DNA of 34,977 bases. Source: Lactobacillus ultunensis DSM 16047. GTDB taxonomy: Bacteria; Bacillota; Bacilli; Lactobacillales; Lactobacillaceae. A model generated the notes under the pieces. It saw nothing but the letters and a program-made list of their open reading frames with translations, ran no database searches and was not told the DNA's origin. This document shows, one piece after another, positions 4,901 through 10,518 of this stretch. The stretch's first letter is position 1. Each line of letters starts with the position of its first letter. Where the stretch lies: contig NZ_AZFO01000025.1 in assembly GCF_001436305.1 (NCBI RefSeq), positions 1-34,977 on the forward strand, read 5' to 3'. Made by a program: the position numbers and the translations under genes.

Positions 4901-6070
4901 CTACATAAATTTAGTATCTTTTTGATCTTTTTTAATAAAGTAATTCAAAATAAATGGTGAAAGCACAGTCGTTACGATGATAACTAAAATTAGACTGGAG
5001 TAAATGTCTTCGGGGAATAGATGGTGTGTAATCCCGATTTGTGCCACAATCAACGCAACTTCACCACGTGAAACCATCCCAGCTCCGACAATATTACCTT
5101 CATTTTTGGTAAAGCCAAAGAACTCACTAGAGTATTTTCCAGCCCAGAACTTGGATAAAACGGCTAAGACGGTCATTACAACGATAAACCAAAGGTCCTT
5201 AAAGAAACTAGTAAACGTCATTGAAAGACCGATATCTGCGAAAAAGACAGGAATAAAGATTGAATAACCGATTACGGAAACAGAGGAGTGCACTTCTTTA
5301 TATTGTGGTGTCTGTCTAATAGCTAAGCCACCGAAGAACGCACCTACAACGGCAGAAAGACCAACAAAGTCAGCAGCCCAAGCCATTGTTAAAGCCAAAA
5401 CAAGGGAACCGATAACTACGGAGTAATCGACACTAATCTTTTCAGAAGCCTTCATGAAATATGGCGCAACGAACTTAAAGATCAGCCAAACGGCTACAAA
5501 GTAGACAGCTTCGATTACAATATTGACGAAAAAGTTATTGGTTAAACCACTTTTACCGCCTTCGTGACTGAAAGTAGTGAATAAACTCAATACTACAACA
5601 GCTAAAATGTCGTCGACCACAGCAGCACCCAGGATTGCGGTACCGGCACGCGTATGTAATTGACGTGCTTCTTGCAATACCACAACGGAGATCGATACAC
5701 TCGTTGCAGCAAAAACAATACCGATGAAGAGTGCCTCAAGCGGTTTCATGCCAAAGAAGTAGCTGGCTAAGCCCATAAATACTACTGGTAGAATTACACC
5801 GATGCTGGCTACTGTGAAGCTTAGCTTAAAGTATTTCTTGAGCAGATCTAGGTCACTTTCTAGACCGGCTAGGAACATTAATAGAATTACCCCAAATTCA
5901 GAGAATAAACTGACAATATCATTTGGTTTGACCAAATTTAAGATAGCAGGTCCTAATAAAATACCTGATAGTAGTTGCCCAATAACTGCTGGCATGTTAA
6001 AACGAGCAAATAATTGCCCAAGCAATACCGTAGTTAATAGGATTAAAATTAATTCCCCTAAAAAATGCAT
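4901..6070 (-). CDS. NapA-type Na+/H+ antiporter (CPA2 family)
   Basis: The start is taken at the ATG at 6070, which has GAGGAAG about 5 nt upstream. The in-frame ATG at 6088 has none. The 389-residue protein is almost entirely membrane-embedded, with about 12-13 helices, and lacks a C-terminal regulatory (TrkA-N) domain. The conserved N-terminus PAVIGQLLSGILLGP, the AGLESDLDLL segment, and the paired aspartates D153-D154 in AVVDDILAV identify the CPA2 exchanger core; the Asp-Asp pair binds cation and protons. It should expel Na+ (or Li+/K+) in exchange for H+ across the cytoplasmic membrane and so take part in pH and salt homeostasis. The gene stands alone, with a strong terminator behind it. 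It has an unusual 5' leader that carries a terminator hairpin and a competing hairpin (see the regulatory entry), which implies conditional expression. The exact cation cannot be read from the sequence. Confidence 0.88.
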   Translation of the reverse strand: MHFLGELILILLTTVLLGQLFARFNMPAVIGQLLSGILLGPAILNLVKPNDIVSLFSEFGVILLMFLAGLESDLDLLKKYFKLSFTVASIGVILPVVFMGLASYFFGMKPLEALFIGIVFAATSVSISVVVLQEARQLHTRAGTAILGAAVVDDILAVVVLSLFTTFSHEGGKSGLTNNFFVNIVIEAVYFVAVWLIFKFVAPYFMKASEKISVDYSVVIGSLVLALTMAWAADFVGLSAVVGAFFGGLAIRQTPQYKEVHSSVSVIGYSIFIPVFFADIGLSMTFTSFFKDLWFIVVMTVLAVLSKFWAGKYSSEFFGFTKNEGNIVGAGMVSRGEVALIVAQIGITHHLFPEDIYSSLILVIIVTTVLSPFILNYFIKKDQKDTKFM

Positions 6071-6096
6071 GTCTTCCTCGCTTTCCATTAAAAAGC

Positions 6097-6162
6097 AAAA
6101 AAACTTTCAAGCGCTTCTTGACCCAAAGGAGCAAATCTTGAAAGTTTTTATTTAATAAAAAC
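6097..6162 (-). promoter_or_regulatory. attenuator-like leader with mutually exclusive hairpins
   Basis: On the minus strand the antiporter leader can form a 13-bp terminator stem (AAAAACTTTCAAG, 6149-6137, with CTTGAAAGTTTTT, 6111-6099). It carries an inner helix and is followed by seven T, about 30 nt before the start codon. The 5' arm overlaps a second, perfect hairpin (GTTTTTATT at 6162-6154 with AATAAAAAC at 6152-6144), so only one can form at a time. This is the layout of a transcription attenuator or riboswitch expression platform. A -10-like TATACT lies upstream at 6196-6191. No known aptamer is recognised, and the leader is short (about 90-100 nt). Confidence 0.55.
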
Positions 6163-6265
6163 CCAACCACCAAATAAATGTATTTAGTTGAGTATAATTT
6201 TAATATTTTTTTAAAGTAGATGCAAATTACTTTCTCAATGAATTCATTTTTAAATACACCTAAAA

Positions 6266-8316: not shown

Positions 8317-8787
8317 TTATTTTATTCTTTTAGATTCGTAGTGCTTGTCGTAAGTGTGCACGACGTAGTTGAAAGCCTTGATCCATTCACGTCTTGTAAG
8401 CAAGCCTTGAAAGACGCCGCGATCATCAACTACCGGTAAGAAAGCATTATTAATCAGTAAATGCAGTTGTGTTTCCAAAGTAGTTTGGACGAAATTTATT
8501 TTATCAAATTTTGTCTGCATTACGTCTTTTACTTTTAATTCATCTAAAGGGGCGGTCGTAATTGCCTCATTAGTGAGCATTTTATCCGTAATCATGGCTA
8601 GACTTAATAATCCAACAACTTTTCTATCTTTGTCTAATACAGGAATCTTAGAATATTTAACTTTGGTCAAAATTAAAAATGCGTGGTAGAGAGGATTGTC
8701 CGCTTCTACGAAGGCAATCCGACTGGCTGGAATTAAAAATGAACCTGATTTTTCTTGAATTAAATGCTTAATCGATGGCGAAAACAT
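8317..8787 (-). CDS. CBS-pair protein, CbpB/DarB (YkuL)-like
   Basis: The start is the ATG at 8787 behind GGGAGG (spacing about 8). An earlier ATG at 8829 has no site. The 156-residue cytoplasmic protein consists of two CBS domains (about residues 18-75 and 85-140). The first carries KYSKIPVLDKDRKVVGLL and the second NAFLPVVDDRGVFQGLLTR. A short N-terminal helix and a basic C-terminus frame them. Length and pattern fit the CbpB/DarB group, which binds cyclic-di-AMP and, in Bacillus and Listeria, signals its level to Rel and pyruvate carboxylase. Whether this one binds c-di-AMP cannot be read directly. A TATAAT box lies on the minus strand at 8818-8813, giving a very short leader. It is a monocistronic gene with its own terminator. 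Confidence 0.75.
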   Translation of the reverse strand: MFSPSIKHLIQEKSGSFLIPASRIAFVEADNPLYHAFLILTKVKYSKIPVLDKDRKVVGLLSLAMITDKMLTNEAITTAPLDELKVKDVMQTKFDKINFVQTTLETQLHLLINNAFLPVVDDRGVFQGLLTRREWIKAFNYVVHTYDKHYESKRIK

Positions 8788-8828
8788 GTAAGCGCCTCCC
8801 TTTCTACCTATAATTATACAGGAAAACA

Positions 8829-8944
8829 AAAGGAAAAGGCCCGCAAGTTTTTGCGGACCTTATTAGTTTCATCTACTTTGGAGGAGTAAGAATGAATGAA
8901 ATAAAAAAGTGGGAGTATGTAGCAAGTTTCTACCGCCTTGCTAC
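8829..8944 (-). ncRNA. csRNA-like small RNA candidate A
   Basis: On the minus strand a TATATA box (8954-8949) precedes a 5' hairpin (GTAGCAAG with CTTGCTAC, 8944-8919). An unpaired pyrimidine-rich stretch follows. It is complementary to a Shine-Dalgarno, spacer and AUG (CATTC..ACTCCTCC, 8894-8880) and also carries ACTCCCAC. The RNA ends in a 10-of-11-bp GC-rich hairpin (8861-8836) with a T-rich tail. A second copy of the same architecture lies at 9041-9208. The order 5' hairpin, anti-SD/anti-AUG linker, terminator is that of the CiaR-controlled csRNAs of streptococci, which block translation of mRNAs. The plus-strand frame here (ATG at 8892, 34 codons) is probably the mirror image of the anti-SD stretch, since the second copy closes after 9 codons. 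Ends are estimated. Confidence 0.55.
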
Positions 8945-9040
8945 GATTTATATACTACAGAGTAAATGTGAATTAAAAATGTACAGATTATTATGAAAAG
9001 GTAAAGATTTGTTTGAGAAGTACTTAAGGAGAATTTTGAG

Positions 9041-9208
9041 CAAAAGAAAAGCTCACGCAACGCACGTGAGCCGAAAGGGATAGATATGAAATTGACTAAT
9101 TGGAGTAAGTCAATTCTTTTTATTTTCATTATTTACTTGGAGGAGTATGAATGAAAAACAAAAAAGTTGAGTTGCAGTAAGTAGAAATCACTTTCCGACT
9201 TACTACAT
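9041..9208 (-). ncRNA. csRNA-like small RNA candidate B
   Basis: This is a tandem relative of candidate A. The minus strand has TATACA (9220-9215), a 5' hairpin (AGTAAGT with ACTTACT, 9204-9176, plus GAAA/TTTC), a T-run and the linker CATTCATACTCCTCC (9153-9139). Then come a second hairpin (AATTGACT with AGTCAATT, 9115-9090) whose loop again shows ACTCC, and a strong terminator (GCTCACG with CGTGAGC, 9071-9051) followed by TTTTCTTTTG. The linker is perfectly complementary to GGAGGAG plus a correctly spaced ATG. Both copies share a TTCACA box upstream (9235-9230 and 8972-8967) and similar -10 regions. In copy B it belongs to two 11-bp-spaced TCACA-like repeats, suggesting a response-regulator site. 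Direct experimental support is lacking. Confidence 0.55.
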
Positions 9209-9333
9209 CATCTATGTATAACCTGAAATTGTGAAAAAAGTGTGACGAAATGCACTTTTCTTTTAAAAAAACTATATTTTGTTGAAAATAGTCCATTCTG
9301 AGTGCGTTAAACGAAAACATAATCTTTTTTGGT

Positions 9334-9339: not shown

Positions 9340-9381
9340 GAAAGACATGGTTATCAACCAAAAATGGAAAGGAGCATTTTC

Positions 9382-10518
9382 TTGAAAAAAATAGGCAAAA
9401 AGATCTTGCATCTGCTGTTGGCACTGCTGATAATTTCAGGAGTAGGAGCAGGTGGTTATTTTGGCTATCAATGGTGGCAAAAACAAGAGATGCTGCAGCA
9501 ACGTCCTAAAGTGCAAAAAGCTAAGGATGGAACCAGCGTTAGTGCCGCCTGGCATAATTTTGACAATTATCAAAAGACCCTGAGAGAAAATTATTCTTTC
9601 ATTAACAAAGTTTCGAATTATGTTCCTCCAAGGACATGGGATGGAAAAGATTTTGTTATACCTGGTTTAATTTCAACTAAAAGCTATGATTTTTCTGCAA
9701 AAAAATGCAATACTGCAACAGCGATGACTCCTCAGGGAATAGCTGTCGCCAACAAGTATATTTTGTTAACGGCATATGATGGCGAACACAAGCATGCTTC
9801 CGTGATATATGTGCTTAATAAGAAAACGGGCAAATATATAAAGACGATCCAAGTTCCTGGTAGACCGCATTTAGGTGGAATTGCTTATGATCCGGTGGCA
9901 AAAAATATCTGGATCACTGGGAGCATGGGCAAGTCATCTGCACTTGCTTCATTTTCACTTAAGACTATGAAAGACTATAAGGTAGGTTCGCATACGCCAA
10001 TTGAATACAATCACCAAATTGCTATTCCTGCGGTAGAAAAAGCTTCTACTGTTACCTATTATGATGGTCAACTATTTGTAGGCTTCTTCAACATGTATGG
10101 TCGAGGCAAAGTTGCAGCTTATACCATTGCCCGCAGTGGAAAAAATAAGGGTTCTATTACTAATAATGAAATTAAATCTGTTACTGGAACCTTGCAATGG
10201 TCAGACCCAACAGGAGAAACTTCAATGGACAAGCAGATTCAAGGAATAGCGATTTATCAAGATAAAATATTCCTTAGTCAGTCCTATGGTAGTGGAAATT
10301 CCAAGCTGTATGTTTTTCCTACTACAGCTTTAAATGCATTGGACGAAAAAAATGCGGAGCTAGTAATAGAGATGCCACCATATTTGGAACAAATTACGGC
10401 TTATAAAGGACAGCTTCTTTGCGTATTTGAATCTGCTTCTAGCATTTATGCGCGTCCTGGAATTACAGTAATGGATCGAATTTTATCGATGAACATTAAT
10501 GCCTTGTTTGGTAATTAA
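9382..10518 (+). CDS. membrane-anchored propeller-like extracellular protein, unknown function
   Basis: I place the start at TTG 9382 because AAGGAG ends 8 nt before it. The in-frame ATG at 9364 lies upstream of that site. The 378-residue protein starts with lysines and one hydrophobic helix (about residues 8-28, LHLLLALLIISGVGAGGYFG) that reads as a signal anchor. The rest is rich in short beta-strand-like repeats: PQGIAVANKYILLTAYD, HLGGIAYDPVAKNIWITG, VTYYDGQLFVGFFN, IQGIAIYQDKIFLSQSYG and LEQITAYKGQLLCVFES. Each alternates 'location-value' strands as in WD- or YVTN-like beta-propellers, giving about five or six blades. No catalytic motif is recognised. It lies just upstream of the dlt operon in the same orientation, which would suit a cell-envelope role. 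The link is only positional. Confidence 0.6.
   Translation: MKKIGKKILHLLLALLIISGVGAGGYFGYQWWQKQEMLQQRPKVQKAKDGTSVSAAWHNFDNYQKTLRENYSFINKVSNYVPPRTWDGKDFVIPGLISTKSYDFSAKKCNTATAMTPQGIAVANKYILLTAYDGEHKHASVIYVLNKKTGKYIKTIQVPGRPHLGGIAYDPVAKNIWITGSMGKSSALASFSLKTMKDYKVGSHTPIEYNHQIAIPAVEKASTVTYYDGQLFVGFFNMYGRGKVAAYTIARSGKNKGSITNNEIKSVTGTLQWSDPTGETSMDKQIQGIAIYQDKIFLSQSYGSGNSKLYVFPTTALNALDEKNAELVIEMPPYLEQITAYKGQLLCVFESASSIYARPGITVMDRILSMNINALFGN

Follow-up and report, generated by a model that had tools for sequence, protein, structure and literature searches.

In the window, by which we mean the whole 34,977-nucleotide stretch of Lactobacillus ultunensis DNA analysed here, the minus strand holds two similar stretches in tandem, and they raise the question of whether they encode regulatory RNAs and, if so, of which kind. 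A sequence-only reading of the same DNA had taken them for csRNA-like small RNAs under the control of a response regulator, and this is still the best reading, supported in part by the comparative analysis presented below. Read directly from the window, the locus holds the gene of RNA B (approximately 9206-9042), followed by that of RNA A (approximately 8944-8829), and it probably specifies two trans-acting small RNAs, each with a separate promoter and a separate terminator. The −10 box, 5′ hairpin, linker of the form CATTC(T/A)TACTCCTCC and terminator previously claimed for the two minus-strand copies were all present in both, and a T-run followed each terminator. The arms of the 5′ hairpin are GTAGCAAG and CTTGCTAC in A and GTAGTAAGT.../...ACTTACTGC in B; the latter consist of other letters and still pair. 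The parts of A are ordered as 5′ hairpin, AUACUCCCAC, core hairpin and terminator, and those of B as 5′ hairpin, linker, core hairpin, middle hairpin, UUUCAUAUCUAUCCCUUUCG and terminator. The features absent from the earlier reading included UUUCAUAUCUAUCCCUUUCG as a second invariant anti-start stretch of B, the additional hairpin in B, ACUCCCAC in A and the fact that the loop of a weak, conserved hairpin holds CCUCC.

Table 1. Features of the small RNA locus in the window (RNA starts were placed from the −10 box and RNA ends from the T-run)
Feature	Position	Strand	Remarks
Promoter of sRNA B	9215..9246	-	Direct repeat GTCACA-N5-TTCACA, 9 bases, −10 TATACA
sRNA B	9042..9206	-	About 165 nt; putative ends
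5′ hairpin of B	9174..9206	-	Strong covariation; double changes in 8/8 pairs
Core hairpin of B	9125..9155	-	Loop with CCUCC; anti-SD ACUCCUCC at 9146-9139; 5′ arm with anti-AUG CAUUCAU
Middle hairpin of B	9092..9116	-	Double changes in 3/6 pairs
Second anti-start stretch of B, UUUCAUAUCUAUCCCUUUCG	9072..9091	-	Almost invariant
Terminator of B	9042..9073	-	Double changes in 3/9 pairs
Promoter of sRNA A	8952..8972	-	TTCACA, 9 bases, −10 TAGTAT; first half-site degenerate
sRNA A	8829..8944	-	About 116 nt; putative ends; model R1, 127.7 bits (window sequence itself in the model)
5′ hairpin of A	8919..8944	-	Covarying; double changes in 3/8 pairs
AUACUCCCAC of A	8909..8918	-	Invariant; possible second anti-SD stretch
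Anti-AUG/anti-SD stretch of A, CAUUCAUUCUUACUCCUCC	8898-8880	-	Overlaps the core hairpin
Core hairpin of A	8868..8896	-	CCUCC in the loop
Terminator of A	8829..8860	-	Just upstream of the CBS-domain gene; double changes in 6/8 pairs
CBS-domain protein gene	8317..8787	-	Downstream of the sRNA locus; ATG at 8787

The minus-strand sequences folded with z-scores of −5.7 (A) and −6.9 (B), values that none of 200 shuffles equalled in either case. In the alignment of A (48 rows, 42 of them distinct), nine pairs were changed on both sides, corresponding to 51 cells, with 98.3% of the cells paired; in that of B (35 rows), the respective values were 14 pairs, 89 cells and 94.8%. For both RNAs, 0 of 500 shuffles reached the observed covariation, and the signal was lost when the pairing partners were slid by 1-3 columns. 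One of the five measures, the number of further pair types, did not rise above the shuffles for A (119 of 500). These compensatory changes, spread over the whole genus, bear out the previous claim that stem arms of different sequence still pair as expected of RNA. The core hairpin of A is invariant, with 97.9% of its cells paired and zero double changes; thus, its support comes from this invariance, from the fold and from its recurrence across subtypes with different spacers. The core hairpin of B was present in the minimum-energy fold and lay outside the structure counted for covariation. In the same fold, the U-rich linker of B was paired with A-rich sequence 3′ of the core hairpin, and the linker therefore need not be open. 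The strand followed from the wobble pairs, as G-U cells exceeded A-C cells in A (85 versus 4, with 39 of the 85 derived from one core pair) and in B (101 versus 20), which identifies the minus strand as the RNA. The plus strand of the copies offers a good Shine-Dalgarno sequence and ATG, from which short peptides (MNEIKKWEY..., MNEKQK...) could be read. That these are genuine peptide genes is hardly credible, since the frames following the SD-like site scatter from 2 to 37 codons among 51 A copies, a T-run differing by one base among species shifts the frame, third-position variation is almost nil in the conserved part, and the promoters, the terminators and the G-U pairs all fit the minus strand; on these sequence grounds, the peptide explanation appears mostly refuted already. 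The earlier argument that disagreeing plus-strand frames make coding unlikely was correct, apart from the length of nine codons given for B, which depends on the ATG chosen (the first ATG gives seven).

A DNA search detected a relative of the element in 55 of the 61 genomes of the genus, including all 49 with a completeness of 90% or more and a contamination not above 5%; the listed completeness of the six genomes without a match was 57-87%. The distinct copies collected from the loci comprised 51 of the A type, 39 of the B type and 27 of a third subtype, C, which occurs in other species, in a section of the genus that yielded neither A nor B. As the collection was restricted to TTCATTC[TA]TACTCCT[CT]C spellings, some B-like copies (e.g., in L027, L037, L039 and L040) are missing from these counts; a match at the edge of L094 and one in L061, corresponding to the start region of a gene for a secreted protein, were left out. 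In A, invariant columns made up 16 of 21 in the linker and 17 of 19 in the core 5′ arm and loop, while the variable parts retained 5 of 26 (5′ hairpin), 2 of 10 (core 3′ arm) and 1 of 23 (terminator). Almost invariant linkers and variable stems characterized the alignments of both A and B. The B copy of the window was matched by the A model at 34.2 bits, making it paralogous to A; instead of two copies of a single RNA, A and B are paralogous subtypes with separately conserved linkers. Some genomes (L029, L039, L051 and L056) carry three or four copies. In the C-type loci L044-L047, L049 and L057, a distance of approximately 0.9-6 kb separates the two C copies, only one of which has the TTCACA box. 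A record titled Faecalicatena absiana (L102, JAEDAG010000010.1) contains an A/B pair and a CBS gene that closely resemble the delbrueckii-type locus, and it is probably contaminated or mislabelled.

The CBS-domain gene (the query sequences for which began two codons early, at 8793) adjoins the small RNA locus in the genus loci examined and in L147, a locus of another genus. The end of A lies approximately 41 bases before the ATG of this gene on the same strand. Such an arrangement, retained in the genus, would be expected if the hairpins were cis-acting leaders or attenuators of the CBS-domain gene instead of free RNAs. We consider this highly improbable, since a promoter and a strong terminator belong to each copy individually, the copy number varies from one to four, distances between copies reach 6 kb in some C-type species, copies adjoin other genes in genus g38 (L148), and a separate TATAAT is present 3′ of the A terminator. 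On the other side of the locus, a divergent gene (9364-10518, plus strand) encodes a protein of 384 amino acids without a Pfam family; beyond it lie an AMP-binding and then an MBOAT gene, which we take to resemble dltA and dltB. Elsewhere in the window, a Na+ riboswitch aptamer (RF03071, 53.5 bits; 6113-6168, minus strand) immediately precedes a Na+/H+ exchanger gene (4901-6088).

Model R1, built from A, matched 8 of 301 family genomes, belonging to 3 of 40 genera: six of the own genus, G123, in which the element adjoins the same CBS gene as in the window, and G347, where two copies stand in tandem next to different genes. The model had no match in nine listed own-genus genomes, several of which carry C-type copies. 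A search of 395 genomes of the order, from 80 genera, with a pattern of the core hairpin gave 17 matching genomes in 7 genera; after reading, 13 of the 17 were judged to be sRNA-like, namely five of the own genus, G062, four of genus g38 and three of one genus in a second family. The remaining four matches (L152, L153, L154 and L164) represented coding or other sequence and were dropped. As R1 misses the nine own-genus genomes and the core pattern misses the C-type copies, both understate the distribution. The same core hairpin with CCUCC in its loop is present in three further genera and in the second family, and an additional ACUCCUUUU stands 5′ of the terminator in several of the g38 and second-family copies. 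No family of Rfam 15 was matched by A or B at its cut-off; the sub-threshold matches to ar14, Phe_leader, MicC and GcvB were taken as chance products of CU-rich sequence.

The TTCACA boxes noted earlier upstream of both copies were then resolved by subtype. The 11-bp repeat of B is GTCACA-N5-TTCACA, and A clearly keeps only the second TTCACA; the B-type promoters as a group follow the pattern KTCACA-N5-TTCACA-N9-TANNNT. Promoters were scored at the 15 positions of TTCACA-N5-TTCACA-N9-TANNNT, where approximately 1% of shuffled upstream regions reach 12. All 39 B copies scored 13 or more. A score of 12 was reached by 20 of the 27 C promoters (7 below), by 12 of the 20 promoters from other genera and the second family (8 below) and by 15 of the 51 A promoters, the other 36 mostly lacking the first half-site. 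The full box is thus carried by B and most C promoters, and mostly its proximal half by A. The lack of a box in some copies of tandem sets suggests that the paralogues may be expressed under different conditions. A conserved TTCTTTACC-TTTTCATAA is located upstream of the A promoter (window approximately 8991-9008, minus strand), approximately 50-65 bases before the A start, and is possibly a distal regulator site.

When the own genome was searched with the full promoter pattern, allowing up to two mismatches, 19 matches were obtained versus 15 in the control; such matches alone are therefore no evidence, a genome-wide regulon could not be called from them, and only htrA was followed. One match is located directly before this gene. 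An htrA gene was found in 16 of the 21 stretches searched (the other five showed none), and 13 of the 16 carry the box at 12 or more of 14 positions, usually as TTCATA-N5-TTCAAA-N9-TATGAT; the promoters of L347-L349 among these 13 are identical, and L342, L343 and L346 are without the box. The occurrence of close variants of one box at htrA and at the B promoters points to one OmpR-type regulator. Further pattern matches, upstream of an Spx-like gene (L180, G000:C51:20554) and of a secreted transglycosylase-like gene (L192, G000:C45:7215), both named by eye, are candidates for the same regulon. The consensus forms TTHACA of PhoP and, on the other strand, TGTNAN of WalR also fit the TTCACA repeats, and it is possible, though we do not favour it, that the same small RNAs are governed by PhoP or WalR instead of a CiaR/LisR-like regulator. 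This is opposed by the fact that CiaR and, according to some of the evidence, LisRK have htrA among their outputs, as stated in the accessible part of PMC12826053. CiaR itself is unlikely to be the regulator, judging from the different box and from a 2010 paper, which reports no CiaH homologue in Lactobacillus in the portion available (PMC3091779). The literature searched, accessible in part, contained no LisR consensus with TTCACA.

Target prediction against start regions, also suggested previously, gave one leading candidate. The own-genome ranking covered 399 kb of stretches together with the window, in which 410 genes were crudely called, and used the linkers only; a full-length duplex ranking was noisy, because the stems pair too, and was replaced. 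The start region of a gene encoding a 308-amino-acid protein with two DUF805 domains ranked 1/410 for A (−30.5 kcal/mol; mean −14.8, s.d. 4.1) and 2/410 for B, with 19 of 20 bases complementary to A. Extended complementarity to the linker is uncommon among mRNAs: matches to the long form TTGGAGGAGTN{1,8}ATGA in the 61 genomes fell mostly in the RNA genes themselves and in 13 other places, and the only other place in the own genome was again this gene. The DUF805 gene was matched in 16 of 61 genomes at 1e-25, and the start was examined in 15 (only the second domain was matched in G056; the G059 gene is broken into two frames, yet the pairing is strong). Taking the better of A and B, 10 of the 15 orthologues had no more than 5 of 625 background genes pairing as well. 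The better partner was A in G000, G053, G007, G042, G058 and G027 (AUGAAUGA or AUGAAUAA) and B in G047, G021, G025 and G059 (AUGAAAAACAAAG in G025); the pairing was weak in G026, G008, G014, G060 and G028. The own-genome gene had been picked as the best, which does not apply to the remaining 14 species, 9 of which pass; the species are related, and the counts are therefore not independent. Controls in which the ACUCCUCCAA core was kept and the linker flanks were shuffled, evaluated on 300 of the background genes, placed a mean of 2.6 and a maximum of 7 of the 15 in the top 2%, and 0 of 58 reached the observed 10. This result constitutes the strongest evidence for the predicted pairing with start regions, and the mRNA of the double-DUF805 membrane protein is the best predicted target. 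Since the gene was matched in only 16 of 61 genomes, it cannot explain the genus-wide conservation; with 45 genomes lacking a match at the cut-off and the RNAs nearly universal, other targets must exist.

A weaker candidate is the mRNA of a cardiolipin synthase-like (cls) gene, which ranked 4/410 for A; TTGGAGGA occurred in 15 of the 30 cls orthologues examined (59 genomes matched) versus 4 of 410 genes, cls and DUF805 being among the four. Among start regions named by eye, an nrdR-like one (L249:12146, G000:C1) ranked 1/410 for the second anti-start stretch of B, and that of a brnQ look-alike ranked 4/410 for B; brnQ is a likely Ccn target according to the accessible part of PMC11478796. GGAGGAG start regions were found in 14 places in the own genome and in 136 places in eight relatives, versus 37 for the reversed pattern. 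Of the places in the relatives, at most 50 were read (30 loci and 20 stretches, overlapping), and the list, again named by eye, was mixed (oppC-like in at least four of nine genomes, rpsG-like, secreted proteins and transporters). It was rejected as a target signature and kept as leads only. The invariant linker is longer than one target needs, and UCCUCC resembles the 16S rRNA tail, as would be expected if the CU-rich linkers bound a protein, another small RNA or ribosomes as a sponge; the specific DUF805 pairing, which extends beyond the Shine-Dalgarno sequence, and the partner switching between A and B make this unlikely and favour mRNA start regions as the sites of action.

Streptococcal csRNAs are multicopy RNAs in which two stem-loops flank a linker complementary to the Shine-Dalgarno sequence and AUG, and they are defined by the promoter NTTAAG-N5-TTTAAG approximately 10 bp before the −10 and by the conserved stretch [A/C]UCCUAAA[A/C] (PMC3091779); CiaR activates both htrA and the csRNAs (PMC3091779, PMC12826053; all in the parts of these papers available). 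A and B share with csRNAs (Ccn RNAs) the multiple copies and the two stem-loops around an anti-SD/AUG linker, which lies partly in a weak hairpin in A and B, and B additionally shares the 11-bp direct repeat before the −10. The regulator of the csRNAs also drives htrA, and the common box suggests the same here. The earlier csRNA-like, response-regulator reading is accordingly sustained with regard to structure, covariation, anti-start stretches, an OmpR-type direct repeat and the box common with htrA. The likeness does not extend to the CiaR box TTTAAG-N5-TTTAAG with its N10 spacing, in place of which the B promoters carry KTCACA-N5-TTCACA-N9-TANNNT and A carries TTCACA alone, also with N9. 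Neither RNA contains [A/C]UCCUAAA[A/C], and the lack of a CiaH homologue in Lactobacillus, reported in the accessible text of PMC3091779, points the same way. Unlike csRNAs, A and B hold CCUCC in a conserved hairpin loop, and B is further distinguished by extra hairpins and by its two anti-start stretches.

Listeria LhrC1-5, also multicopy, need LisR, respond to cell-envelope stress and regulate a surface adhesin (PMC4132741), and LisRK has been linked to htrA (PMC12826053), as stated in the available parts of both sources; the link to htrA is a further likeness to A and B. The LisR-responsive element of LhrC was mapped upstream of −53 and not at −35 (PMC4132741, accessible part), whereas the A/B box takes the place of the −35. 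The LhrC family (RF00616, cut-off 110 bits) had no listed match in the window, and L166 and L158, two of the copies from genus g38 and the second family, scored 23.7 and 24.1 bits. The best weak matches included Ref84 (RF02846), an Enterococcus small RNA, matched over its full model each time with 23.4 (A), 28.3 (L158) and 38.8 bits (L166), all below its cut-off of 52 bits, and a distant kinship is possible. Ref84 has the U-rich UUUUUUAUUU in common with A and L166, and ACUCCUUUU before the terminator in common with L158 and L166; unlike that of the A/B core hairpin, its hairpin loop is not CCUCC. The open-licence papers on small RNAs of lactobacilli, in the parts available, contained no description of A or B, in agreement with the earlier statement that no counterpart in lactobacilli had been described. 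That statement is qualified by two small RNAs of L. casei BL23 similar to unnamed Enterococcus families (PMC8220740, accessible part), which might be members of the A/B family. By the features tested, A and B are neither csRNAs nor LhrC RNAs and form a new csRNA-like family conserved throughout the genus.

The structure, strand, conservation, common promoter sequence and pairing potential were obtained by computation, and we infer expression, the type of regulator, the order of pairing and repression. An OmpR-type response regulator would bind KTCACA-N5-TTCACA in place of the −35, clearly at B and through one clear half-site at A, and would also drive htrA, for which reason we propose to place the RNAs in a response to envelope or secretion stress. 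In each RNA, CCUCC would be exposed in the loop of the weak conserved hairpin and would pair first with the Shine-Dalgarno sequence of the mRNA (UUGGAGGA). The 5′ arm would then open and pair with the start codon region (AUGAAUGA...), and the resulting duplex would block ribosome entry. The new elements here are the B-type promoter box apparently common with htrA and DUF805 as a predicted target with partner switching between species. It is also conceivable, although we regard it as doubtful, that A, B, C, the elements of the other genera and the second family, Enterococcus Ref84 and possibly also the csRNAs and LhrC represent one old Lactobacillales small-RNA superfamily, born as the RNA arm of the envelope-stress regulator that controls htrA. 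In such a superfamily, the CCUCC anti-start core would be constant, the stems, the regulator box and the targets would change over time, and paralogues would exchange targets from one species to another. If the proposed working is correct, lactobacilli would have a conserved RNA branch in their control of envelope stress, one that is absent from Rfam 15, and envelope-related proteins may be switched off under stress by A and B. It would then be possible to test directly whether regulation of the csRNA type had a single origin or several origins alongside the control of htrA, and to study how duplicated small RNAs divide and exchange their targets.
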